Below, piece by piece: positions 6,600-18,169 of a stretch of 64,000 bases of DNA. A program made the position numbers and the translations under genes. Below the pieces are notes generated by a model. It was not told the DNA's origin. It ran no database searches and worked only from the letters and a program-made list of their open reading frames with translations. The first letter of the stretch is position 1, and every line of letters begins with the position of its first letter. The DNA comes from Alloyangia pacifica (GTDB taxonomy: Bacteria > Pseudomonadota > Alphaproteobacteria > Rhodobacterales > Rhodobacteraceae), in the NCBI RefSeq assembly GCF_020524285.1, contig NZ_JAIVKX010000009.1:186001-250000 (forward strand), in the 5' to 3' direction.

Positions 6600-6893
6600 A
6601 TGAAAGGCTATTGGCTGGTGCTCGGCACCGATGTGACCGACCCCGAGGCGCAGGCGGAGTACGGCCGTCTCTGGGCCCCCGTCGCCGCCAGGTACGGCGC
6701 GAAAGTGAGACGCGGCGACCACGCACCCGCGCTGCTCGAGGCCGGCGACAAGTCTCGGATCCTGCTGGTGGAATTCGAGAGCCTCGCCAAAGCCAGGGCC
6801 TGCTACGACGACCCCGAGTACCAGGCCGCCCGCGCTTTTGCCATGAAGGCGGCGACGCGCGAGCTGGTGATCTTCGAGGGCGATCTGGGCTGA
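6600..6893 (+). CDS. DUF1330 family protein
   Basis: A 97-residue protein with the compact ferredoxin-like DUF1330 fold: MKGYWLVLGTDVTDPEAQ at the start, a central RILLVEFESLAKARACYDDP and a C-terminal ELVIFEGDLG. Family members are small cytoplasmic dimeric alpha+beta barrels related to antibiotic-biosynthesis monooxygenase folds, and their reaction is unknown. The gene stands alone between acnB (divergent) and the CoA-transferase island, and has its own terminator. Its function cannot be assigned from sequence. Confidence 0.85.
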   Translation: MKGYWLVLGTDVTDPEAQAEYGRLWAPVAARYGAKVRRGDHAPALLEAGDKSRILLVEFESLAKARACYDDPEYQAARAFAMKAATRELVIFEGDLG

Positions 6894-6917
6894 GCGCTCC
6901 CCCAAACGCTGCCATCC

Positions 6918-6953
6918 GCACGCGGCTCCCGGCGACGGGGGCCGCGTGCTTTC
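6918..6953 (+). terminator. Terminator after the DUF1330 gene
   Basis: A hairpin of GCACGCGGC (6918-6926) with GCCGCGTGC (6941-6949), extended by CCC/GGG pairs inside, is followed by TTTCGTC. It begins about 25 bp past the stop codon. Confidence 0.65.
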
Positions 6954-7001
6954 GTCTCGGCGCCGCGCCATCGGGCTTGACGCACCATGGGTGAAGCAGT
7001 C

Positions 7002-7034
7002 ATTCATATGTGAGCAGACCTTTCACAGAAGAAT
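7002..7034. promoter_or_regulatory. Paired IclR-type operators upstream of the CoA-transferase
   Basis: Two 14-bp sites of the form ATTC-N6-GAAT lie 19 bp apart: ATTCATATGTGAGC at 7002 and TTTCACAGAAGAAT at 7021. The same motif recurs at the other three promoters of this island. The second site ends only 9 bp before the ATG of the CoA-transferase, a position suited to repression. Confidence 0.6.
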
Positions 7035-7043
7035 GAGCGCCAG

Positions 7044-8237
7044 ATGACCGCCAGCCCTCCGACCCAGACCGCAAGCAGCCCGGCAGCCCCCCTGCCCGAG
7101 CGCCCGCTCGAGGGGCTCTTGGTGGTCGACCTCAGCCAGTTTCTCTCCGGCCCCTATTGCTCGCTGCGGCTGGCCGATCTGGGCGCGCGGGTGATCAAGA
7201 TAGAGCGCGCCGGTGCCGGGGACCTGTCGCGGCAGCTCTACCTGTCGGACACGGAAATCGGCGGCGACTCGACGATCTTCCACGCCATCAACCGCGGCAA
7301 GGAAAGCCTCGCGCTCGATCTCAAGGATCCGGCCGATCTTGCCGCGCTGAAGCGGCTGGTGGCGCAGGCCGACGTGATGATCCAGAACTTCCGCCCGGGC
7401 GTGGCGGACCGCATCGGCGTCGGATGGGAGGAGATGCACGCGCTCAATCCGCGTCTCGTCTACGGCTCGATCTCGGGCTACGGCGACGACGGGCCCTGGG
7501 TGAAGTTCCCCGGGCAGGACCTTCTGGCGCAGGCGCGCTCGGGGCTGATGTGGCTCACCGGCGACGCGGCGCAGGGGCCGGTGCCCATGGGGCTCGCCGT
7601 GGGCGACATGTTCGCCGGGGTGGCACTGTCGCAGGGCATTCTCGCGGCGCTGGTGCGGCGCGGCATCGACGGCATCGGGCGGCACGTGGAGACCTCGCTG
7701 CTCGAGGCGCTGGTCGATCTGCAGTTCGAGGTGCTGACCACCTGGCTCAACGACGGCCGCCGCCTGCCCACCCGCTCGCAGACCAATGGCGCCCACGCCT
7801 ACCTCGGCGCCCCCTACGGCGTCTATGCCGCCAAGGATGGCTACCTCGCGCTGGCGATGACCCCGCTCGACCGGCTGGCGGCGCTTCTGGAGCTGCCCGA
7901 ACTGGCCGGGCGCCCGGCCAGCGATGCCTTCAGCGCCCGCGACGCGATCAAGGCCCGGCTCGCCGAGCGCGTGGCCGAGAAGACCGTCGCCGACTGGCTC
8001 GCCATCCTGCAGCCCGCCGACATCTGGTGCTCGGAGGTGCTCAACTGGTCCGAGCTGATGCAGGCCGAGGCCTTCACCCGGCTCGACCTGCTGCAGACCG
8101 TGACCCGCGACGACGGCGTGTCGATCGACACCACCCGCGCGCCGCTGACCATCGACGGCCGCCGCCCGGCGGGCCGCCGCGCCGCGCCGCGCGTCGGCGA
8201 GCATTCGGAGACGATCCGCAAGGAGTTCGGACTATGA
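7044..8237 (+). CDS. CaiB/BaiF family CoA-transferase
   Basis: This 397-residue class III CoA-transferase moves CoA between carboxylic acids in the cytoplasm through an aspartyl-CoA anhydride. LSQFLSGPYCSLRLADLGARVIKIE-type N-terminal sequence marks the nucleotide-fold domain, and INRGKESLALDLKDP and MIQNFRPGVADRIGVGW are family signatures. Asp188 in GLAVGDMFAG fits the catalytic aspartate. The substrate cannot be told from sequence. The stop codon overlaps the start of the next gene by 4 bp (ATGA), so the two are translationally coupled. Two copies of the island palindrome lie directly upstream, predicting control by the IclR regulator. Confidence 0.93.
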   Translation: MTASPPTQTASSPAAPLPERPLEGLLVVDLSQFLSGPYCSLRLADLGARVIKIERAGAGDLSRQLYLSDTEIGGDSTIFHAINRGKESLALDLKDPADLAALKRLVAQADVMIQNFRPGVADRIGVGWEEMHALNPRLVYGSISGYGDDGPWVKFPGQDLLAQARSGLMWLTGDAAQGPVPMGLAVGDMFAGVALSQGILAALVRRGIDGIGRHVETSLLEALVDLQFEVLTTWLNDGRRLPTRSQTNGAHAYLGAPYGVYAAKDGYLALAMTPLDRLAALLELPELAGRPASDAFSARDAIKARLAERVAEKTVADWLAILQPADIWCSEVLNWSELMQAEAFTRLDLLQTVTRDDGVSIDTTRAPLTIDGRRPAGRRAAPRVGEHSETIRKEFGL

Positions 8238-9337
8238 TCACCCTCAAGGGCATGACCTGGGACCACCCGCGCGGCTACGACCCGCTCGCCGCCCTGTCGC
8301 GCGAATGGGAGGCCAAGCACGGCGTCTGGATCACCTGGGACCGGCGCTCGCTGCAGGATTTCGAGAGCTACCCGGTGCTCGATCTGGCCAAGGCCTACGA
8401 CCTCGTCATCATCGACCACCCGCACGTCGGGCAGATCACCGGCGAAGCCTGCCTGACCCCCCTGCCCGATGCGCCGGAGATCGCCGCCGGGTCGCTCGGG
8501 CGTTCCTACGAGAGCTACACCTGGGAGGGTCGCCAATGGGCCTACCCCGTGGATGCCGCGGCGCAGGTTCAGGCGGTGCGGCCGGACCTGACGGCGCCGG
8601 TGACCACGTGGGACGAGGTGATGCGGCTCGCCGACGAAGGGCGGGTGCTGATCCCGCTGCGCCCGCCGCACGTGCTGATGAGCTTCTACACGCTCTGCGC
8701 CAACCTCGGGCATCCCTGCCAGGTCGATGGCGCCGCGCCCTTCGTCGACCGAGCCGGCGGCCTGCGCGCGCTGGAACTGCTGACGGCGCTCGCGGCGAAG
8801 GTCGACCCCGCCTGCTTCCAGATGGACCCGATCGCCGTGTTGGCCGAGATGGCGCAGAGCGATCGCATCGCCTGCGCGCCATTGATCTACGGCTACATCA
8901 GCTATTCGCTGCCCGAGGCCACGCCGCACCGCGTCACCTTTCACGACATCCCCGAGGCCGCGCCCGGCGCCGGGCCGAAAGGCAGTGCGCTCGGCGGCAC
9001 GGGGCTCGCGGTCTCGGCCTTCTGCCAGCACCCGGACGCAGCCATCGCCTTTGCCCGCCATGCGGCGGGCCCCGAGGCGCAGGCCGGGCTCTGGGCCTCG
9101 ACGGGCGGTCAGGCCGGGCACCGCGATGCCTGGGTATCGCCGCAGGTGGATGCGGGCGCGGGCGGCTTCTACTCGGGCACCCTCGCGACGCTGGATACCG
9201 CCTGGATGCGCCCCCGCCACGACGGCTACATGCCGTTCCAGCAGGAGGCGTCGGAGCGGATCAACGCGGCGCTGAAGGACGGGGCGTTCGAGGCCGCCCT
9301 GGACGACCTCGACCGGATGTTCGCCGCGACCTTCTGA
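8234..9337 (+). CDS. Solute-binding-fold protein without signal peptide
   Basis: This 367-residue protein resembles family 1 extracellular solute-binding proteins of sugar ABC importers: TWEGRQWAYPVDAAAQVQ, a central TTWDEVMRLADEG and C-terminal PFQQEASERINAAL. It starts directly with MITLKGMTWDHPRGYDPLAA, with no charged-hydrophobic leader, and its ATG overlaps the CoA-transferase stop. So it should be cytoplasmic and made with the CoA-transferase, unlike the normal exported binding protein at 11173. I recall leaderless proteins with this TWDHPRGY start as a recurrent family next to CoA-transferases. A role as a cytoplasmic ligand-binding or scaffold partner is inference. It ends 3 bp from the convergent amidohydrolase gene. 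Confidence 0.85.
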   Translation: MITLKGMTWDHPRGYDPLAALSREWEAKHGVWITWDRRSLQDFESYPVLDLAKAYDLVIIDHPHVGQITGEACLTPLPDAPEIAAGSLGRSYESYTWEGRQWAYPVDAAAQVQAVRPDLTAPVTTWDEVMRLADEGRVLIPLRPPHVLMSFYTLCANLGHPCQVDGAAPFVDRAGGLRALELLTALAAKVDPACFQMDPIAVLAEMAQSDRIACAPLIYGYISYSLPEATPHRVTFHDIPEAAPGAGPKGSALGGTGLAVSAFCQHPDAAIAFARHAAGPEAQAGLWASTGGQAGHRDAWVSPQVDAGAGGFYSGTLATLDTAWMRPRHDGYMPFQQEASERINAALKDGAFEAALDDLDRMFAATF

Positions 9338-9340
9338 GGC

Positions 9341-10186
9341 TCAGAGCTTCCAGATGCGCGCCGCGTTCCCCGCATAAAGCGCGGCGCGCTCATCTGCGCT
9401 CCAGCCGGCAAAGATCGCGCGGGTGGCGGCGACCCAGGTGGAGAGCCCGCCGCCCAGCGTGTTCACCGGCCAGTCGCCGCCCCAGCAGATGCGCTCGGGG
9501 CCGAAGGTCTCGGCGGTGTAGGTGACCCAGCGGGTCAGCTCATCCAGCGACCAGCCCGCCCCGCCATAGGCGACCACGCCGGAGATCTTGGCCGACACGT
9601 TCGGGCGCTTGGCGATCTCGGCAAGGTCGCGCGCCCAGATGTCCCATTGTCCGCCCTCGATATCCGGCACGCCGCAGTGGTCGAGCACGAAGCGGGTGTC
9701 GGGCGCGGAATCGACCAGGTCGATGGCCAGGGGCAACTGCCGGGCGAGCACGCAGAGGTCGAAGGGCAGATCGGGCCCGGCGAGCAGGCGGATGTTCTGC
9801 CGGAAGAGCGCCCCCTGCGAGACCGCGTCGGGCACCACGTGCAGCACGCGGCGGAATCCGACGACGAGATCGCGCGCGGCGGAGCGTTCAAGGAAGGCTG
9901 GGAAATCACCAGACTCCGGACGGCAGGCGGCAATCGCGCCGCGGATCGGGAAGGTTCCGCTGGCGGCCAGTTCCTCGACCCAGGTGGTCTCGTCCTCGAT
10001 GCGCGCATCGGCGACGTCCACTTCCATGTGGATCGCCCCGCCGATGCCGATGCGGCGGGCCTCCTCGGCGTAGGTCTCCAGCAGCCAGTCCCGGTCCAGC
10101 AGCGGCGCGCCGGACAGCCACGGGTAGTCGAGCCGCCTGCGGTCGACGAGGTGAAGGTGGCTGTCCAGAATCGCGGGCTCTTGCAT
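9341..10186 (-). CDS. Amidohydrolase family protein (COG3618, lactonase-like)
   Basis: A 281-residue TIM-barrel metal-dependent hydrolase. The N-terminal HxH is in DSHLHLVD, a metal or substrate His in VLDHCGVPD, and the C-terminal Asp in CWGGDWPVNTLGG. This set is typical of amidohydrolase 2 / COG3618 enzymes such as L-fuconolactonase and L-rhamnonolactonase, which open sugar lactones. I chose the ATG at 10186 because GGGAGGAG stands just before it; a start nine codons upstream lacks such a site. With an L-fuconate-type dehydratase in the same island, a sugar-lactone substrate is likely. Two operator copies lie 22-54 bp upstream. Confidence 0.88.
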   Translation of the reverse strand: MQEPAILDSHLHLVDRRRLDYPWLSGAPLLDRDWLLETYAEEARRIGIGGAIHMEVDVADARIEDETTWVEELAASGTFPIRGAIAACRPESGDFPAFLERSAARDLVVGFRRVLHVVPDAVSQGALFRQNIRLLAGPDLPFDLCVLARQLPLAIDLVDSAPDTRFVLDHCGVPDIEGGQWDIWARDLAEIAKRPNVSAKISGVVAYGGAGWSLDELTRWVTYTAETFGPERICWGGDWPVNTLGGGLSTWVAATRAIFAGWSADERAALYAGNAARIWKL

Positions 10187-10207
10187 GTGCTCCTCCCTGA
10201 GCGAAGT

Positions 10208-10240
10208 ATTCACTCAAGAATGGATCATTCAGATGCGAAT
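10208..10240. promoter_or_regulatory. Paired IclR-type operators upstream of the amidohydrolase
   Basis: ATTCACTCAAGAAT (10208-10221) and ATTCAGATGCGAAT (10227-10240) are both perfect ATTC-N6-GAAT palindromes, with starts 19 bp apart. The right-hand copy overlaps the last codons and stop of the iclR gene, so the operator is built partly from coding sequence. Confidence 0.7.
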
Positions 10241-11022
10241 GTCTCCCCCTCCGCGCCATATCCGGCAAATCGCGACAGCTCGGCCGTGGTCTCGACCAGC
10301 GCCGCCGTCGCGTCCTCGGGGCTGGGCGCGGATTCGCTGTCGACCAGCGGCAGGTAGGGAATGGTGACCGCGGCGATGGCCTCGCCGCTCGGCGCCAGGA
10401 CCGGAGCCGAGAGGTTGGTCACGCCGACCGTCTGCGCCGAGGGCTTCACCTCGTAGCCACGGTCGCGGATGACCTCGAAGCGGGCCTCCAACTCGGCGGG
10501 GATCGCGCGCGCCGGCGCGCCGGTATCGCTGTTCTCGGCCACCATCGCGAGACGCCGCTCCGGGCTGGAGAAGGCCAGCAGCACGTTGCCCGAGCCGGTG
10601 TCGAAGAGGTTGATGTGGCTCCCGACGCGGATCGAGATGCCCCAGTAGCCCGGTGCCTCCTGCTGGGCGATGACCACGGCGTTGCCGCGGTCGAAGACGA
10701 CAAGCTGGTTCGCCTGCCGGGTGCGCTCGGCCAGGTCGCGCAGCAGCGGTGTCGCCAGCGAGGCAAGCCGACGCGTCGGCGCGTGGAACTGCGCCATGCC
10801 GAACATTTTCAGCGTCAGCGCGTAGCGGTCACCCTCGACGCGGGCGACATAGCCACGGCGGGCGAGGCGCTCGAGCATCCGGTAGAACTCGTTGGGGGAA
10901 CGGCCGAGCGCCTTGGCGATCTCGGCCTGGGTGAGCCCGCCCTCGATCCCGGCAAGCAACTCGAGAATGTCGAGCCCCTTGTCGAGCGCCGGCGCGCGGT
11001 AGCGGTCAGTGGTGTCGGTCAT
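10225..11022 (-). CDS. IclR family transcriptional regulator
   Basis: A 265-residue IclR regulator. The N-terminal winged helix (about residues 8-70) contains LTQAEIAKALGRSPNEFYRM. The effector domain (about 85-250) includes VGSHINLFDTGSGNVLLAF and SAQTVGVTNLSAPVLAPSG, the usual small-molecule pocket region. It sits in the middle of the catabolic island with target genes on both sides. Palindromes of the same form occur before its own gene and before the three neighbouring transcription units, consistent with local control plus autoregulation. The inducer is unknown, but a sugar acid or lactone would fit. Confidence 0.95.
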   Translation of the reverse strand: MTDTTDRYRAPALDKGLDILELLAGIEGGLTQAEIAKALGRSPNEFYRMLERLARRGYVARVEGDRYALTLKMFGMAQFHAPTRRLASLATPLLRDLAERTRQANQLVVFDRGNAVVIAQQEAPGYWGISIRVGSHINLFDTGSGNVLLAFSSPERRLAMVAENSDTGAPARAIPAELEARFEVIRDRGYEVKPSAQTVGVTNLSAPVLAPSGEAIAAVTIPYLPLVDSESAPSPEDATAALVETTAELSRFAGYGAEGETFASE

Positions 11023-11044
11023 GCTGCTCTCTGTGAATTACGTC

Positions 11045-11058
11045 ATTCATATAAGAAT
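11045..11058. promoter_or_regulatory. IclR-type operator upstream of iclR
   Basis: ATTCATATAAGAAT is a perfect ATTC-N6-GAAT palindrome 23-36 bp upstream of the iclR ATG, suggesting autoregulation. An isolated GAAT half-site lies nearer the start at 11035. I see no second full copy with 19-bp phasing here. Confidence 0.6.
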
Positions 11059-11084
11059 ACGTTCTGCGCATCCAGCGGATTTCC

Positions 11085-11138
11085 TTGACAGGCGCCTCAC
11101 ATTGTATTTGCATATAAATAGATTATCCATAAGTGAGG
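11085..11138 (+). promoter_or_regulatory. Promoter region and paired degenerate operators of the ABC operon
   Basis: A perfect TTGACA is at 11085-11090. Downstream is AT-rich DNA with a TATAAA-like stretch at 11113-11118; the spacing is longer than ideal, so the -10 is uncertain. Two operator-like palindromes again start 19 bp apart: ATTTGCATATAAAT at 11106 (perfect ATTT/AAAT arms) and ATCCATAAGTGAGG at 11125 (weak). They would cover the -10 and start point. Confidence 0.5.
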
Positions 11139-11172
11139 GGATACCTCTCGCGGATTTTCAGGGAGGAGAACC

Positions 11173-12477
11173 ATGAAATATCTGACAACCGCTTCGGCGG
11201 CGGTGCTGGCCTTGGCAACCGCCGCCTCCGCGCAGGATCTGCCGGGCAGCTTCGAGGGCGTGACCATCGAGGCGAAACTCATCGGCGGGCAGCAATACGA
11301 GCCGCTCTACGCACGGATCGCCGAATGGGAGGCCGCGACCGGTGCCAAGGTCGAGGTGATCTCGAAGAAGAACCACTTCGAGCTCGACCGCGAGATCAAG
11401 TCCGACATCGCCACCGGCCAGCTCGGCTGGTGCGTCGGCTCGAACCACTCGTCCTTTGCGCCGCAGTACCCGGGGATCTACGTCGACCTCCGCGAGTATC
11501 TGCCGGAAGAGGCGCTCGCCGACTTCGTGCCGGGCAACATCCAGTCGGCGACGCTGGACGGCAAGCTGGTGATGCTGCCCCGCGCGCAGTTCGACGTCTC
11601 GGCGCTCTACTACCAGAAGGACCTCTACGAGACCGCCGATGCCGCCGCCTTCGAGGCGGAATACGGCTACCCGCTCGCGGTGCCCGAAACCTGGGACCAG
11701 GTCGCGGATCAGGCGAAGTTCTTCGCCGATGCGCCGAACTTCTACGGCACCCAATACGCCGGCAAGGAAGAGGCCATCGCCGGGCGCTTCTACGAGATCC
11801 TCGTGGCCGACGGCGGCGAATTCCTCGACGCCGACGGGCGTCCCGCCTTCAACTCGGAAGCAGGCGTCGAGGCGCTGAACTGGTTCGTCGATCTCTACCA
11901 GGCGCAGGCCGTGCCCGCGGGCGTGCCGAACTACCTCTGGGACGATCTCGGCCAGGGCTTCGCCTCGGGCACGGTGGCGCTGAACCTCGACTGGCCGGGC
12001 TGGGCCGGGTTCTTCAACGACCCCGAAGCCTCGAAGGTCGCGGGCAACGTCGGCGTCGCGCCGCCGCCCAAGGGATCCGCGGACATCCGTTCGGGCTGGT
12101 CGGGCTTCCACGGGTTCTCGGTCACGCAGGACTGCGAGACCCCCGAGGCCGCCGCCTCGCTGGTCTGGTTCCTGACCAACGAAGACAGCCAGAAGCTGGA
12201 GAGCGCCGCGGGCCCGCTGCCTTCGCGCCAGTCGGTCTGGGATCACGTAATCGCCGAGGCCGAGGGGGACGCCTATCGCACCGAGGTGCTGAAGGCCTTC
12301 CAGGTGGCCGCCGAGACCGCCTTCCCCGTACCGCAGACGCCGAGCTGGATCGAGATCACCAACGTGCTCTACCCGGAACTGCAGGCCGCCATCCTCGGGG
12401 ACAAGACCCCGCAGGAGGCGCTCGACACGGCCGCCGAAGAGGCGACCTACATCCTCGAGGACGCCGGCGAGCTCTGA
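11173..12477 (+). CDS. Sugar ABC transporter substrate-binding protein
   Basis: A 434-residue family 1 extracellular solute-binding protein with a clear Sec signal (MKYLTTASAAVLALATAASA, cleavage after ASA-Q). It would capture a sugar or sugar derivative in the periplasm for the two permeases encoded next. Recognisable regions include the N-terminal domain with EWEAATGAKVEVISKKNHFE and the AVPETWDQVADQAKFF hinge segment common to this family. It opens the operon running to the dehydratase gene at 18169. GGAGGAGAACC precedes the ATG. A 9-bp stem-loop follows the gene, as often seen where the binding protein is made in excess of the membrane subunits. Confidence 0.95.
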   Translation: MKYLTTASAAVLALATAASAQDLPGSFEGVTIEAKLIGGQQYEPLYARIAEWEAATGAKVEVISKKNHFELDREIKSDIATGQLGWCVGSNHSSFAPQYPGIYVDLREYLPEEALADFVPGNIQSATLDGKLVMLPRAQFDVSALYYQKDLYETADAAAFEAEYGYPLAVPETWDQVADQAKFFADAPNFYGTQYAGKEEAIAGRFYEILVADGGEFLDADGRPAFNSEAGVEALNWFVDLYQAQAVPAGVPNYLWDDLGQGFASGTVALNLDWPGWAGFFNDPEASKVAGNVGVAPPPKGSADIRSGWSGFHGFSVTQDCETPEAAASLVWFLTNEDSQKLESAAGPLPSRQSVWDHVIAEAEGDAYRTEVLKAFQVAAETAFPVPQTPSWIEITNVLYPELQAAILGDKTPQEALDTAAEEATYILEDAGEL

Positions 12478-12490
12478 GCCGCGCCGCTTC

Positions 12491-12514
12491 GCGGGCCGCC
12501 CTTGCGCGGCCCGC
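12491..12514 (+). other. Intercistronic stem-loop after the binding-protein gene
   Basis: GCGGGCCGC (12491-12499) pairs with GCGGCCCGC (12506-12514) around a 6-nt loop, with no T-run. Such hairpins commonly stabilise the binding-protein part of ABC operon transcripts or attenuate expression of the downstream genes. Confidence 0.6.
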
Positions 12515-12535
12515 CTCCCCTGACAGGAGACAAAG

Positions 12536-13432
12536 ATGAAGGCCTCGCGCCTCCCCCCGCATATCATGCTGCTGTTGCCTGCGGTGATCGTGCTCGCCGC
12601 CGTGGTGGTGCTGCCGCTGCTGCTGTCGCTCTGGTCGAGCTTCACGCCGTTTCGTCTGACCCGGCCGGAGTCGGTCTACCAGTTCATCGGCATCCGCAAC
12701 TACCAGCGCATCTTCGGCGACATGGATTTCTGGATCGCCTTCGGCCGCACCGTGCTGCTGCTGACGGTGGCGCTGAATCTCGAGATGCTGATCGGCCTCG
12801 GCCTCGCGCTGCTGGTCGACCGGCAGACCCGCGGCCAGCGGCTGCTGCGCACCATCCTGATGTTCCCGATGATGTTCTCGCCGATCCTCGTCGGCTTCCA
12901 GTTCAAGTTCATGTTCAACGACAACGTCGGGCTGGTGAACAACGCCCTGCAGTCGCTGGGCCTCACCGATAAGGCGATCCCCTGGCTGATCGACGGCAAG
13001 CTCGCCTTCCTCGCCATCGCCGCTGCCGAGATCTGGTCCTCCACTGCGGTCTTCGCGATCTTCATCCTGGCGGGTCTCATGGCGATGCCGCGCGATCCGC
13101 AGGAGGCGGCCCGGGTCGACGGCTGCACGCCGTGGCAGACCTTCCGCTATGTCACATGGCCCTTCCTGATGCCCTTCGCCTTCATCGCGATGACCATCCG
13201 CAGCCTCGACGTGGCGCGGGCCTATGACATCATCAAGATCATGACCGACGGCGGCCCCGCCGGCCGGACCGAGGTGCTTTGGACGCTGATCGCCCGCACC
13301 GCCTATTCCGACGCCCGCATGGGGATGGCCAATGCCATGGCCTATGTCGCGATCCTGCTGTCGGTGGCCTTCACGGCGTATTTCTTCTCACAGCTCGGCA
13401 AGGCCCGGGCGCAGGTCGCGGGGGATTGGTGA
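12536..13432 (+). CDS. Sugar ABC transporter permease (MalF-like)
   Basis: A 298-residue inner-membrane permease with about six membrane segments, beginning with a long hydrophobic stretch (IMLLLPAVIVLAAVVVLPLL). The cytoplasmic EAA loop for ATPase docking reads EAARVDGCTPWQTFRYVTWP. It pairs with the following permease to form the channel for the substrate delivered by the 11173 binding protein. The stop (TGA, 13430-13432) shares one base with the next ATG. Confidence 0.95.
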   Translation: MKASRLPPHIMLLLPAVIVLAAVVVLPLLLSLWSSFTPFRLTRPESVYQFIGIRNYQRIFGDMDFWIAFGRTVLLLTVALNLEMLIGLGLALLVDRQTRGQRLLRTILMFPMMFSPILVGFQFKFMFNDNVGLVNNALQSLGLTDKAIPWLIDGKLAFLAIAAAEIWSSTAVFAIFILAGLMAMPRDPQEAARVDGCTPWQTFRYVTWPFLMPFAFIAMTIRSLDVARAYDIIKIMTDGGPAGRTEVLWTLIARTAYSDARMGMANAMAYVAILLSVAFTAYFFSQLGKARAQVAGDW

Positions 13433-14298
13433 TGGACGCGAATGCCTCCGCACGTCTGAAGAAACGCGGCTCGGCCTGGGCGCTCAACATCGCGCTCTTC
13501 ATCTCGATGCTGATCATCTGCCTTCCGGGCCTGTGGATCGTGCTCAACTCGCTGCGGCCCACGGTCGAGATCATGGCCAAGCCGCCGGTCTGGATCCCGC
13601 GCGAGCTGTCGTTCGATGCCTATGTCGACATGTTCTCGGGCGTCGGACAGGGCGGCATCCCGGTGGTCGCGTATTTCCGCAACTCGGTGATCATCGCCGT
13701 CACCTCGACGATCATCTCGCTGGCGATCGGCATGTCCGGCGGCTACGCCTTCGCGCGCTACCGCTTCAAGGGCAAGTCGGCGTGGTTCCTCGGCCTCATG
13801 CTGACCCGCACGGTGCCGGGCATTGCGCTGTCGCTGCCGCTGTTCTTCCTCTACGCCAAGGTCGGGCTGATCGACACCCACGCAGGGATGATCATCGCCT
13901 ACACGGCGCTCAACGTGCCCTTCAGCATCTGGCTGATCGACGGCTTCTTCCGGCAGGTCCCGCGCGATCTGGCCGAGGCGGCGCAGATCGACGGCTGCAC
14001 CCGCTGGCAGGCCTTCTGGCAGGTCGAGTTCCCGCTCGCCCGCCCCGGCATCGCCAGCGCCGGCATCTTCGCCTTCCTCACCTCGTGGAACGAGTTCGCG
14101 CTGGCCAGCCAGCTCACCCGCTCCACCGACAGCAAGACCCTTCCGGTGGGCCTGCTGGATTACACCGCCGAGTTCACCATCGACTGGCGCGGCATGTGCG
14201 CGCTGGCCGTGGTGATGATCATCCCGGCGCTTCTTCTGACTTACGCGGTGCAGAAGCACCTCGTCTCGGGCCTGACCTCGGGCGCGATCAAGGGATAA
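13432..14298 (+). CDS. Sugar ABC transporter permease (MalG-like)
   Basis: This 288-residue partner permease starts at the ATG that overlaps the previous stop as TGATG, indicating coupled translation. It has six predicted membrane helices and the EAA motif EAAQIDGCTRWQAFWQVEFP. The motif LTSWNEFALASQL near the C-terminus is typical of MalG-type (CUT1) carbohydrate permeases, which puts the system among di- or oligosaccharide and polyol importers. The exact ligand is not evident. Confidence 0.95.
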   Translation: MDANASARLKKRGSAWALNIALFISMLIICLPGLWIVLNSLRPTVEIMAKPPVWIPRELSFDAYVDMFSGVGQGGIPVVAYFRNSVIIAVTSTIISLAIGMSGGYAFARYRFKGKSAWFLGLMLTRTVPGIALSLPLFFLYAKVGLIDTHAGMIIAYTALNVPFSIWLIDGFFRQVPRDLAEAAQIDGCTRWQAFWQVEFPLARPGIASAGIFAFLTSWNEFALASQLTRSTDSKTLPVGLLDYTAEFTIDWRGMCALAVVMIIPALLLTYAVQKHLVSGLTSGAIKG

Positions 14299-14301
14299 GA
14301 C

Positions 14302-15393
14302 ATGGCAACGCTCACCCTATCCACACTCGACAAGAAATACGGCGGCTTCCACGCGGTGAAGGGCATCGACCTCGAGGTCGCCGACGGCGAGTTCGTCGCG
14401 CTGGTCGGCCCCTCGGGCTGCGGCAAGTCCACAACGCTGCGGATGATCGCCGGGCTCGAGGACATCTCGGGCGGCGAGCTGCGCATCGGCGAGCGGGTGG
14501 TCAACGACCTGCCGCCGCGCGACCGCAACATCTCGATGGTGTTCCAGAGCTACGCGCTCTACCCGCATATGACGGTGGCCGAGAACATGGGCTTCTCGCT
14601 GAAGATCGCCGGACGCGATGCCGCCACCATCGACACCGCCGTGAAGGAGGCCGCGCGTATCCTCGACATCGAGCTGCTGCTGGAGCGCCGCCCCGCGCAG
14701 CTTTCAGGCGGGCAGCGCCAGCGCGTCGCCATGGGGCGTGCCATCGTGCGCGACCCGGACGTGTTCCTGTTCGACGAGCCGCTGTCGAACCTTGACGCCA
14801 AGCTGCGCGGCCAGATGCGCACCGAGATCAAGCAGTTGCACGCGCGGCTCGGTTCCACGGTGGTCTATGTCACCCACGACCAGATCGAGGCGATGACCCT
14901 CGCGGACCGCATCGTCATCATGCGCGGCGGGGTGATCGAACAGGTCGGAACGCCCGACGAGGTGTTCAACCGCCCCGCCTCGCGCTTTGTTGCCAGCTTC
15001 ATCGGCTCGCCGCCGATGAACATGGCCGAGGCCACGGTCACGCGGGGCGCGCTGCATTTCGATGACGGCACCGAAGTGCCGGTGCCGCCCACCTTCACCG
15101 TCGCCGAGGGGCGGCGCGTGGTGCTTGGTCTGCGTCCGGACGACGTCTATCCCGAGGGGCACGGCATCCACAGCGAAAGCGGCCACGCCGTCGACAGCCG
15201 CGAGCTGCCGGTAAAACTGTCCGAGCCGCTGGGCAACGAGACGCTGCTCTTCACCGAGTTCGGCGGAGAGAACTGGACCGCGCGGATGCTGAACCCCCGC
15301 GTCGTCAAGCGCGGCGAGGTGCTGCGTTTCCACCTCGACCTGTCGCGCGCGCATCTCTTCGACGCCGAGACCGGGCTCACCCTGCGCGGCTGA
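14302..15393 (+). CDS. Sugar ABC transporter ATP-binding protein (UgpC/MsmK-like)
   Basis: A 363-residue ATPase of the CUT1 type that drives the two permeases. It has Walker A GPSGCGKST, the Q-loop in VFQSYALYPHMTVAENMGF, signature LSGGQRQRVAMGRA, Walker B VFLFDEPLSNLDAKLR and switch His in YVTHDQIEAM. The C-terminal third is a TOBE/regulatory domain (from about residue 235), as in MalK and UgpC. It begins 3 bp after the second permease gene. Some UgpC-type ATPases serve several importers, so this one need not be exclusive. Confidence 0.96.
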   Translation: MATLTLSTLDKKYGGFHAVKGIDLEVADGEFVALVGPSGCGKSTTLRMIAGLEDISGGELRIGERVVNDLPPRDRNISMVFQSYALYPHMTVAENMGFSLKIAGRDAATIDTAVKEAARILDIELLLERRPAQLSGGQRQRVAMGRAIVRDPDVFLFDEPLSNLDAKLRGQMRTEIKQLHARLGSTVVYVTHDQIEAMTLADRIVIMRGGVIEQVGTPDEVFNRPASRFVASFIGSPPMNMAEATVTRGALHFDDGTEVPVPPTFTVAEGRRVVLGLRPDDVYPEGHGIHSESGHAVDSRELPVKLSEPLGNETLLFTEFGGENWTARMLNPRVVKRGEVLRFHLDLSRAHLFDAETGLTLRG

Positions 15394-15402
15394 GGAGGCA
15401 CC

Positions 15403-16446
15403 ATGGAGACGCTCAAACAGGACTGGACCCCGCCGGCCACCCGACGCCCGATCGTCATCTTCGGCGCGGGCTCGATCGTGCGCGATGCCCACCTGCCCGC
15501 CTGGGCCGCGGGCGGCTACCAGGTGGCGGGCATCACCGACCCCGACCACGCCAAGGCCGAGGCGCTGGCCGCCGAGCACGGAACGCGGGCGCTGACCGCC
15601 CGCGAGGCGCTGGCGGTGCCGGATGCGGTTTTCGACCTCGCCACCCCGCCCGACGCCCATGCGGGGATACTCGAACGGCTGCCCGAGGGCGCGCCGGTGC
15701 TGATCCAGAAGCCCATGGGCAGCACGCTCGAAGGCGCGAGCGAGATCCTCAGGATCTGCCGCGACCGCGCGCTACTGGCGGCGATGAACTTCCAACTGCG
15801 CTTTGCCCCCATGGCGGTGGCGCTGAAGGACGCCATCGACAAGGGCCTGCTGGGTCAGGTGGTCGACATCGAGATGCACGGGGTGCTCGCCACGCCGTGG
15901 GGCCTCTGGACCTTTCTCGAAGGGCTGCCCCGGATCGAGATCGCCATGCACTCGATCCATTACCTCGACCTGATCCGCCACCTCGTCGGCGACCCCAGGG
16001 GCGTCTCTGCCCGCACCCTCGGCCACCCGAGCCATGCCGTCGCCCAGACCCGCACCGCCGCGATCCTCGACTACGGACCCGAGCTGCGCTGCCTGCTCTC
16101 GGTCAACCACGACTGGGATTTCGGCCGCCCGCACCAGGCCTGCGAGCTGCGCGTCGCGGGCACGAAGGGCGCAGCTTTCATGAAACTGGGCGTGAACCTC
16201 GACTACCCCAAGGGCGAGCCCGACGTGCTGGAGATCAACGACGGCGGCGGCTGGCAAGCGATCCCGCTCACCGGCTCGTGGTTCACCGAGAGCTTCACCG
16301 CCCGCATGCACAACCTTCAGCGCGCCGCCGCGGGCGAGGAGGCGCTGATCGCCCCCGTCGCCGATGGCTGGCGCACCATGGCGCTGGTCGAGGCCTGCTA
16401 CGCCGCCTCTGCCGCGCCGCTGACCCCCATTCAGGAGACCCCGTGA
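15403..16446 (+). CDS. Gfo/Idh/MocA family oxidoreductase
   Basis: A 347-residue NAD(P)-dependent sugar or polyol oxidoreductase. The Rossmann domain (about residues 15-140) has GAGSIVRDAHLPAW, and a C-terminal alpha/beta substrate domain follows. The usual EKP motif reads QKPMG: the catalytic lysine is kept but the glutamate is a glutamine. HSIHYLDLIRHLVG supplies the typical substrate-domain His/Asp region. In this operon it probably oxidises the transported sugar or an acid derived from it. Its stop overlaps the next start (TGATG). Confidence 0.9.
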   Translation: METLKQDWTPPATRRPIVIFGAGSIVRDAHLPAWAAGGYQVAGITDPDHAKAEALAAEHGTRALTAREALAVPDAVFDLATPPDAHAGILERLPEGAPVLIQKPMGSTLEGASEILRICRDRALLAAMNFQLRFAPMAVALKDAIDKGLLGQVVDIEMHGVLATPWGLWTFLEGLPRIEIAMHSIHYLDLIRHLVGDPRGVSARTLGHPSHAVAQTRTAAILDYGPELRCLLSVNHDWDFGRPHQACELRVAGTKGAAFMKLGVNLDYPKGEPDVLEINDGGGWQAIPLTGSWFTESFTARMHNLQRAAAGEEALIAPVADGWRTMALVEACYAASAAPLTPIQETP

Positions 16447-16901
16447 TGGAACGCCCCCGCTACCTTGAAGAGATCGAGATCGGCGAGGTCCGCGAGACCT
16501 ACGGCCGCACGATCACCGAGACCGATTTCGTCGTCCACGCCGGGCACACCGGCGACTTCTTCCCGCACCACATGGACGCCGAGTTCATGGCCAAGTCCGA
16601 GTTCGGCGGCCGCATCGCCCATGGCACGATGATCTTCGCCATCGGCGTCGGGCTGACCGCGACCGAGATCAATCCGCTGGCCTTCTCCTACGGCTACGAC
16701 CGGCTGCGCTTTGTCCGGCCCGTCTTCATCGGCGACACCATCCGCACCCGCATCACCGCCGCCCGCAAGGAAGACGACCCCAAGCGTCCGCAGTCCGGCA
16801 AGCTCTTCGAGACGGTGCAGGTGCTGAACCAGCGAGACGAGGTGGTGCTGGCCTGCGAGCACATCTACGTGGTGCAGAAGAAGGAGGTCGCCGCGGCATG
16901 A
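16446..16901 (+). CDS. MaoC family (R)-hydratase/dehydratase
   Basis: A 151-residue hot-dog-fold protein of the MaoC family, which hydrates enoyl-CoA thioesters or carries out related dehydrations. The catalytic Asp/His region is TGDFFPHHMDAEF, followed by FGGRIAHGTMIFAIGVGL, which matches the conserved GRIAHG of the family. The ATG overlaps the oxidoreductase stop, and its own end overlaps the next gene by 4 bp. A CoA-thioester enzyme inside a sugar-acid operon is unexpected. With the CaiB-type transferase under the same regulator it suggests that part of the pathway runs on CoA esters. Confidence 0.9.
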   Translation: MERPRYLEEIEIGEVRETYGRTITETDFVVHAGHTGDFFPHHMDAEFMAKSEFGGRIAHGTMIFAIGVGLTATEINPLAFSYGYDRLRFVRPVFIGDTIRTRITAARKEDDPKRPQSGKLFETVQVLNQRDEVVLACEHIYVVQKKEVAAA

Positions 16902-18169
16902 CACGGATCACCGGCCTGCGCACATGGGATCTGCGCTTCCCCTCGGAGGGTGGTCTCGACGGCTCCGACGCGATGAACCCCGACCCGGTCTATTCGGCCG
17001 CCTACGTGACTCTGGAGACCGACGGCGGGCACGAGGGCCACGGGCTGACCTTCACCATCGGGCGCGGCAACGAGCTTTGCGTCGCCGCCATCGAGGCGCT
17101 GAAGGGACAGGTGATCGGCCGCGACACCGACGACATCCGCGCCAACCCCGGCGCCTTCTGGCGCGAAATCACCGGCGACAGCCAGCTGCGCTGGGTCGGG
17201 CCGGAAAAAGGCGTCATCCACCTCGCGACCGGCGCACTGGTCAACGCGGTCTGGGATCTCATGGCGCGCGAGGCCGGGCTGCCGGTCTGGCGTTTCGTCT
17301 CCGAGATGAGCCCCGAGGAGCTCGCCCGCATTCCCGACTACCGCTACATGACCGATTTCCTCGACCCGGCACAGGCGCTGGAGCTTCTGCAGGAGGCCGC
17401 ACGCGGCAAGCCCGCCCGCATCGCCACGCTGCTCGAGGAGGGCTATCCCTGCTACACCACCTCGGCGGGCTGGCTGGGCTATCCCGACGACAAGCTGCGG
17501 CGGCTCTGCCGCGAGGCCGGGGCGCAGGGCTTCACCCATGTGAAGATGAAGGTGGGCCGCGATCTGCAGGATGACATCCGCCGCCTGACCATCTTCCGCG
17601 AGGAGCTGGGCCCGGACGTCACGCTGATGATCGACGCCAACCAGGTCTGGGAGGTGCCGCAGGCCATCGACTGGGTGAACCGCCTGTCCTTTGCCAAGCC
17701 GTGGTTCATCGAGGAACCGACGAGCCCCGATGACATCCTCGGGCACAGGGCGATCCGCGAGGGCGTCGCCCCGGTCAAGGTGGCGACCGGCGAGATGTGC
17801 CAGAACCGGGTGATGTTCAAGCAGTTCATCGCTTCGGGCGCGATCGACGTGGTGCAGATCGACGCCTGTCGGCTCGGCGGGCTCAACGAGGTCTTTGCCG
17901 TGCAGCTGATGGCCGCCAAGGCCGGGCTGCCGGTCTGGCCGCACGCGGGCGGGGTCGGCCTGTGCGAATACGTGCAGCACCTGAGCATGATCGACTACGT
18001 GGCGGTCTGCGGCGCGAAGGACGACCGCCGCACCGAATACGTCGACCACCTGCACGAGCATTTCACCGATCCCTGCGTGCTGCGCGGCGGCGCCTATATG
18101 GCGCCCTCCGCCCCCGGCTTCTCGATCGAGATCAAGGACGCCACACGCCGCGCTTTTGCGGTGGACTGA
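16898..18169 (+). CDS. L-fuconate dehydratase-like enolase superfamily protein
   Basis: A 423-residue mandelate racemase / muconate lactonizing superfamily enzyme closely resembling L-fuconate dehydratase. Its catalytic set aligns with the Xanthomonas FucD residues at a constant offset of two: Lys216 and Lys218 (HVKMKVG), metal ligands Asp246 (MIDANQ), Glu272 (FIEEPTSPDD) and Glu299 (VATGEM), and His349 (WPHAGGVGLCEYVQHLSM). FucD dehydrates L-fuconate to 2-keto-3-deoxy-L-fuconate in the non-phosphorylating fucose route. Substrate could also be a stereochemically related sugar acid. The gene ends the operon; the later dehydrogenase and hydrolase of the fucose route are not in this window. Confidence 0.88.
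   Translation: MTRITGLRTWDLRFPSEGGLDGSDAMNPDPVYSAAYVTLETDGGHEGHGLTFTIGRGNELCVAAIEALKGQVIGRDTDDIRANPGAFWREITGDSQLRWVGPEKGVIHLATGALVNAVWDLMAREAGLPVWRFVSEMSPEELARIPDYRYMTDFLDPAQALELLQEAARGKPARIATLLEEGYPCYTTSAGWLGYPDDKLRRLCREAGAQGFTHVKMKVGRDLQDDIRRLTIFREELGPDVTLMIDANQVWEVPQAIDWVNRLSFAKPWFIEEPTSPDDILGHRAIREGVAPVKVATGEMCQNRVMFKQFIASGAIDVVQIDACRLGGLNEVFAVQLMAAKAGLPVWPHAGGVGLCEYVQHLSMIDYVAVCGAKDDRRTEYVDHLHEHFTDPCVLRGGAYMAPSAPGFSIEIKDATRRAFAVD

Follow-up and report, generated by a model that had tools for sequence, protein, structure and literature searches.

Tandem operator-like palindromes of a putative IclR-family repressor at a probable 6-deoxysugar catabolic island of Alloyangia pacifica

Introduction

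Tandem binding sites of IclR-family regulators, with centres 18–22 nucleotides apart, have been described in 94 orthologous groups (Suvorova and Gelfand 2021, PMC8222616; comparisons with this and the other papers cited by PMC number refer to parts of those papers). The same study describes three-box sites with two pairing modes in the IclR family, and names COG3254 and COG3618 as frequent associates in IclR regulogs. Here we examine a catabolic island of Alloyangia pacifica, contained in a 64-kb stretch of a 5.73-Mb genome (contig C9:186001-250000, hereafter the window), in which paired palindromes stand at four promoters. The island comprises, in order, a CoA-transferase gene (CaiB) and a solute-binding-protein homologue (SBP2) on the plus strand, an amidohydrolase gene and iclR on the minus strand, and, again on the plus strand, an ATP-binding cassette (ABC) transporter operon with genes for Gfo, MaoC and MR/MLE enzymes downstream. 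We consider it about 85% probable that the IclR-family protein encoded at 10225-11022 uses all four sites as its operators, that this protein is a repressor of 6-deoxysugar (L-fucose/L-rhamnose-type) catabolism, and that its regulon is split over two places in the genome.

The sites resemble the published tandem operators (PMC8222616) in several respects: the presumed binder belongs to the IclR family, the half-sites are of the TYC/GRA type, and the distances between dyads, 20 base pairs (bp) at iclR and 19 at each of the other promoters, fall within the reported 18–22 nucleotides. The paired IclR dimers invoked in the original prediction, which had been made from the window's sequence, are consistent with those sites. 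In contrast to group 1 of that study (TYC-N7/N8-GRA), the outer dyads here read TTC-N6-GAA, one or two bases shorter, and so do not belong to it, while the inner dyad, TGAA-N7/8-TTCA, fits its group 2 (TGRA-N7/N8-TYCA). As in the three-box operators of PcaU/PobR (PMC8222616), alternating half-sites would allow two pairing modes; unlike those operators, each site here has four boxes, and with the PcaR/PcaU/PobR model TIGR02431 the protein reaches 86.8 bits where the cutoff is 284.75. The tetramer of TtgV on its operator (via PMC8222616) is the model that we borrow, so that stoichiometry here is proposed by analogy.

Two further systems invite comparison. BhcR of Paracoccus denitrificans (PMC11323563) is likewise an alphaproteobacterial IclR-family protein, encoded divergently from its target operon and with proposed autoregulation, but it serves a different pathway, and our protein falls short of the cutoff of 350 bits for the BhcR model (NF045644), scoring 95.6. 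FucR sites have been predicted in L-fucose loci, including that of a microbial-mat Rhodobacteraceae bin (PMC5507952, Figure 3). Those loci share with ours L-fucose/L-fuconate genes, an ABC transporter and predicted regulator sites; FucR, compared here without its family or motif, may or may not equal this regulator. A partial literature search found no description of this regulator or of the 19/20 rule reported below, and the group may figure in the supplements of PMC8222616. The tandem arrangement is thus already known, and the freshest part of the present work is a one-base difference between the operator of the regulator's own gene and those of its putative targets.

Paired dyads in the window

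Each of the four promoters carries two dyads at a short fixed distance. We scored them with a matrix trained on relatives outside Rhodobacterales (see below). The putative operator of the CaiB/SBP2 operon lies at 7002-7034 (plus strand, spacing 19 bp, score 28.7), that of the amidohydrolase gene at 10208-10240 (minus strand, 19 bp, 21.9), that of iclR itself at 11025-11058 (minus strand, 20 bp, 20.9, with one outer box degenerate), and that of the ABC-transporter operon at 11106-11138 (plus strand, 19 bp, 22.2, with dyads that are degenerate here). The amidohydrolase operator reaches into the last codons of iclR, whose open reading frame (ORF) ends 38 bp from the assumed amidohydrolase start codon at 10186 (the longest ORF begins at 10213).

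The original prediction had seen a single palindrome, ATTC-N6-GAAT, at all four promoters. Exact copies in the window are confined to 10208, 10227 and 11045, and the two claimed before the CoA-transferase gene are inexact, with one mismatch at 7021 (TTTCACAGAAGAAT) and two at 7002 (ATTCATATGTGAGC). The copies at 11106 (ATTTGCATATAAAT) and 11125 (ATCCATAAGTGAGG) proved on inspection to be degenerate forms, just as described, and the start-to-start distance of 19 bp is true of all three pairs that had been named. The term 'perfect palindromes' suits the outer 4-bp arms but not the inner six bases. Two other details need revision: the dyad at 11045, taken for a lone site, is one half of the 20-bp pair at iclR, and the ABC sites, thought to be weaker and so perhaps to grade the response, score no lower by the matrix than the amidohydrolase and iclR operators. 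Several relatives have ABC operators with higher matrix scores than that of the window.

Taken singly, dyads carry little weight: with one mismatch allowed the window holds 11, where 10.06 are expected, so a lone dyad is weak evidence. Pairs behave differently. The four operators are the sole pairs scoring at least 20 in the 64 kb at any spacing of 12–30, and 200 random Markov windows gave none at spacing 19 or 20, compared with the four seen here. Only two further pairs exceed 16, and both overlap the four operators: one at 10212 (spacing 15 bp, score 17.5), in the place of the amidohydrolase operator, and one at 6983 (19 bp, 16.6).

Across the whole genome the exact dyad occurs 18 times and a reversed control pattern five times; three of the 18 lie together in an 851-bp segment of this island. 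We also scanned the 5.73 Mb with a sequence-only covariance model, for which other genomes supplied 33 operators, scoring 150 of 170 candidates. Six matches were returned at E values up to 10, and the best five are the four operators, that of CaiB being matched on both strands. The motif is therefore not scattered through the genome; scattering would have counted against the prediction. The sixth match, at C21:27733 (E 0.49), has a matrix score of 11.0 and was set aside as resembling chance.

Conservation and spacing in relatives

The IclR protein was used to retrieve 80 loci from Rhodobacterales and Rhizobiales, whose upstream sequences gave 215 dereplicated promoter regions. A symmetric 14-bp matrix was trained by expectation maximization on the 177 dereplicated regions outside Rhodobacterales, with the best 70% kept per round and two seeds. 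The distance between dyads was left free from 13 to 26, and iclR regions were trimmed to 95 bases, which separates them from the ABC operator.

The tandem operator is kept at orthologous promoters of both orders, as had been asked of the motif: in 166 of the 215 regions the best pair, at some spacing of 13–26, scores above the 99% level of shuffled sequence. Among all target operators detected (111 in 150 regions), 104 have a spacing of 19 bp, and among all iclR operators detected (55 in 65 regions), 48 have a spacing of 20. No preference of this kind appeared after shuffling of the regions. Outside Rhodobacterales, operators were found in 48 of 54 iclR regions (41 at 20 bp, five at 19 and two at 15) and in 29 of 34 ABC regions (26 at 19 bp); the amidohydrolase and CaiB operators detected there were spaced by 19 bp in 27 and 30 cases, respectively. 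Within Rhodobacterales the corresponding figures are 7/11 for iclR, all at 20 bp, and, at the targets, 8/9 for ABC (all at 19 bp), 7/9 for the amidohydrolase (six at 19 bp) and 7/9 for CaiB (all at 19 bp).

The difference persisted when each promoter class was left out of training in turn (single seed; 43 ABC, 52 amidohydrolase, 55 CaiB and 65 iclR regions examined). Matches at 19 bp then made up 25 of 30 for ABC, 32 of 37 for the amidohydrolase and 37 of 39 for CaiB, and 36 of 46 iclR matches were at 20 bp. In the 80 loci together (1.55 Mb), 157 pairs above 18 are spaced by 19 bp and 46 by 20 bp, with 0–7 at each other spacing from 12 to 30; these loci are related and not dereplicated, and the pairs are not independent events. 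In the iclR, CaiB and amidohydrolase operators the spacer columns have low information and the half-sites high, and our argument is this fixed length of a spacer whose bases are little informative. Two spacer columns of the ABC operator carry some information.

Of the plasmid loci kept out of training, all ten have one or more pairs that exceed 16 with a spacing of 19 or 20 bp. Five of them have an iclR-proximal pair, always at 20 bp, and the other five have no such proximal pair above 16. Around IclR homologues only 40–52% identical, 18 of 26 loci have a pair of at least 18 (spacings 18–21 scanned). Judged from these sequences, the operator specificity seems to belong to a wider IclR subfamily. 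Most of the loci near such homologues (L024-L045) share the 19-bp paired motif. Class-wide sampling added no new orthologs, the one genome in 385 with a match at E 1e-75 being that of the window.

We also counted all 4-mer dyads in upstream regions outside Rhodobacterales. At CaiB the most enriched is TGAA-N7-TTCA (24/46), with ATTC-N6-GAAT third (15/46); at iclR it is TGAA-N8-TTCA (29/49), and GC-rich dyads (CCGG-N8, CGGC-N6) also rank high. ATTC-N6-GAAT occurs there in 1/49 iclR regions, with 0.3 expected, the inner dyad being conserved instead. As a mark shared by all four promoters ATTC-N6-GAAT thus holds up in part, ranking third at CaiB and the amidohydrolase but being rare at iclR promoters outside Rhodobacterales. 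In the window the inner dyad TGAA-N7/8-TTCA is exact only at iclR (N8); the CaiB and amidohydrolase copies (N7) each deviate at a single base, and the ABC copy is degenerate.

Each operator comprises four half-sites, ATTC-N6-GAAT-N5-ATTC-N6-GAAT, the central spacer being N6 upstream of iclR itself. A tentative extension, which we think rather more likely to fail than to hold, is that a single base pair discriminates self from target, the inner dyad spanning 16 bp (20-bp phase) at iclR but 15 bp (19-bp phase) at targets, a difference kept across two orders. If true, such a spacer-length code would give autoregulation an oligomer geometry of its own and thereby alter its affinity or regulatory sign.

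Two observations on phase may be added. Rhizobiales ABC promoters, for example at L146:9872-9923, show a possible third dyad toward the -35 element in the same 19-bp phase. Distances between the iclR and ABC operators initially seemed quantised in 54 loci, as helical phasing would give; this was not supported, as some ABC operators were likely registered one dyad off and TTGAC-anchored distances in the loci inspected do not follow 10-bp steps.

A fifth operator on another contig

In four stretches from relatives the cluster includes an L-rhamnose-mutarotase-like gene, an SDR gene and a gene for an FAH-family hydrolase, none of which is in the window's cluster; in three of the four an annotated L-fuconate dehydratase gene is present too. 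On contig C4, away from the main cluster, orthologs of the SDR (62%) and the hydrolase (73%) lie together in an apparent operon led by a mutarotase gene (PF05336, 112.6 bits) and continued by a split galactarate/altronate-dehydratase-like enzyme (C4:289158-292649, or L154:5159-8650). This operon has its own operator copy upstream, a 19-bp pair scoring 17.4 at C4:292718-292750, 68 nucleotides from the mutarotase start.

At this threshold other distances average 3.2 pairs per 1.55 Mb, or about 12 chance pairs genome-wide at one distance, so the case for the fifth operator rests on location and conservation, not on score. It starts 21 nucleotides after the start of a TTGACA, matching the ABC operator, and a genome search with a combined TTGACA and operator pattern, modelled on this pair of promoters and tolerating two mismatches, gave no further match. 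All three close relatives with a mutarotase-led operon carry the operator (18.5, 20.1 and 19.3, each at 19 bp) with TTGAC equally distant; the mutarotase is followed by the dehydratase-like pair in L176 and L177, and by the SDR and hydrolase in L178. Other arrangements gave no such pair. In the four other genomes searched (L179-L182) the mutarotase gene is flanked by MR2 and Gfo, as if within the ABC operon; these and L183, with a more distant homologue, have no pair above 14, and 19 further loci of the family (L157-L175), 15 of them with the gene directly after MR2, have none above 15. The fifth operator fronts genes that relatives retain in the main cluster, and its sequence and position point to a fifth, distant target operon in the regulon, which had been drawn as confined to an island of about 11 kb and can no longer be.

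Promoter geometry and proposed mechanism

A -35-like TTGACA at 11085-11090 (plus strand) precedes the ABC operator by 21 nucleotides, and TTGAC stands 21–22 nucleotides before the operator in 37 of 42 ABC promoters of relatives. A -10 element at the usual distance would lie inside the operator, which would place a bound protein in a repressor position. The case at CaiB is weaker: a TTGACG at 6977-6982 (plus strand) lies 25 nucleotides before the operator, and only 7 of 37 CaiB operators have TTGAC at that distance. No TTGAC was found near the operator at the amidohydrolase (0/34) or iclR (0/52). A consensus promoter scan of 6800-11300 did not report the proposed TTGACA promoters, and the only promoter-like site that it called falls in the region of the ABC operator, oriented along the minus strand.

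In the mechanism that we infer, each operator could accommodate two dimers or one tetramer of the IclR protein, aligned on almost one face of the helix. At the ABC and fifth promoters the bound protein would cover the -10 element and block RNA polymerase until a sugar-derived effector released it, and at iclR it would mediate autoregulation. Since the operator of the amidohydrolase gene runs into the 3' end of iclR, 38 bp before the assumed start, it may serve an internal promoter or act as a roadblock. The regulon would serve a non-phosphorylative 6-deoxysugar (L-fucose/L-rhamnose-type) pathway encoded at two genome locations. Such a system would offer a testable regulator-operator set for the deoxysugar pathway of marine Rhodobacterales and rhizobia, tie a second genomic locus to the deoxysugar regulon, and supply natural operators differing by one spacer base, useful for learning how IclR-family proteins read half-site spacing.

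Alternative explanations

The alternative that survives best, though we judge it unlikely, is that the IclR protein acts as an activator, or as an activator at some promoters and a repressor at its own. A dual role has been proposed for BhcR, the IclR-family protein of Paracoccus (PMC11323563), and the 20-bp spacing at iclR does separate it from the 19-bp targets as a second class. Against activation, the ABC and fifth operators begin 21 nucleotides after TTGAC and would cover the -10 element, a position typical of repression; near the amidohydrolase and iclR operators no TTGAC was seen, and either mode may apply there.

It is improbable that the sites belong to another regulator of the pathway instead of the neighbouring IclR protein. 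Contig C4, with the fifth operator, yielded no IclR homologue in a search to E 0.001, and an ORF that we take to be LysR-like lies about 3 kb from that operator; moreover, binding by the neighbouring protein is read from sequence. Yet the motif accompanies the IclR homologues of 40–52% identity described above, some with other neighbours, and two Rhizobium loci with iclR and a few enzymes (L137, L143) retain the iclR-proximal pair. The half-sites and tandem distance also match published IclR-family motifs (PMC8222616).

That the pairs are AT-rich promoter sequence matching a loose palindrome by chance is scarcely credible: single dyads do occur at chance level and the sites are AT-rich stretches within GC-rich DNA, but only 0.0003 pairs scoring 20 or more are expected in 286 bp of promoter composition, most detected operators in two orders keep a spacing of 19 or 20, and outside the ABC operator the half-sites carry much information and the spacers little.

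We retain repression by the IclR protein, against which several results weigh. The operators are putative, binding to them is a prediction, and activation, though less probable, would also fit. Detection outside Rhodobacterales reached just 29 of 43 regions at the amidohydrolase and 31 of 46 at CaiB, and the commonest dyad at the amidohydrolase is TATT-N2-AATA (14/42), with ATTC-N6-GAAT third (14/42). Shared ancestry of the relatives means that the counts are not independent events. No pair above 18 was found in 7 of 15 atypical loci (L065, L102, L104, L120, L121, L125, L126), and none above 14 in L037, L042 and L046-L049 or in the 3.8 kb examined of L023, whose IclR is 66% identical; L023 and the seven atypical loci nevertheless encode orthologs of the regulator. 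The fifth operator is absent from the covariance-model matches at E up to 10. Finally, the enzyme models score under their cutoffs, the FAH hydrolase at 413.4 against 500 and the amidohydrolase, with the L-fucono-1,5-lactonase model, at 92.7 against 400 bits.

Genes and pathway of the island

The regulator (10225-11022, minus strand) has 265 residues and matches IclR-family models at both ends, with 45.7 bits for the N-terminal HTH_IclR (cutoff 22) and 59.7 for the C-terminal IclR_C (cutoff 24). It is 97% identical to proteins of Alloyangia pacifica and Salipiger mangrovisoli, in a search that may omit very near records. CaiB (7044-8237, plus strand) is a family III CoA-transferase (CaiB/BaiF; PF02515, 336.9 bits), and the Amidohydro_2 protein (9341-10186, minus strand; PF04909, 148.3 bits) is lactonase-like. 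COG3618 is an amidohydrolase family and COG3254 a mutarotase family. From ORF translations and profile matches, the ABC transporter (11173-15393, plus strand) comprises a solute-binding protein (SBP1), two permeases and an ATPase. It is followed at 15403-18169 (plus strand) by a Gfo/Idh-type oxidoreductase, a MaoC-type dehydratase and an MR/MLE-family dehydratase, assigned by translations, profile matches and the annotation of relatives; the ortholog of the last is annotated L-fuconate dehydratase in L136 and L146.

A lactonase, an aldonate dehydratase, an SDR dehydrogenase and an FAH-type hydrolase are thus all represented by family, two of the four on C4. From these families and the relatives' annotations, a 6-deoxysugar pathway is our best reading; because the enzyme models fall under their cutoffs, L-fucose and L-rhamnose are not distinguishable as substrate.

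SBP2 (8234-9337, plus strand), recognised by profile match and translation, has no evident signal peptide. Its N-terminus was compared at seven loci, one of which (L064) gave no match; in the other six (L050, L053, L059, L080, L092, L122) none of the orthologs has a hydrophobic signal-like N-terminus, by hydropathy alone. Sequence comparison suggests that this neighbour of CaiB may be a cytoplasmic binding protein. SBP1 of those same loci differs from SBP2 in its N-terminus.

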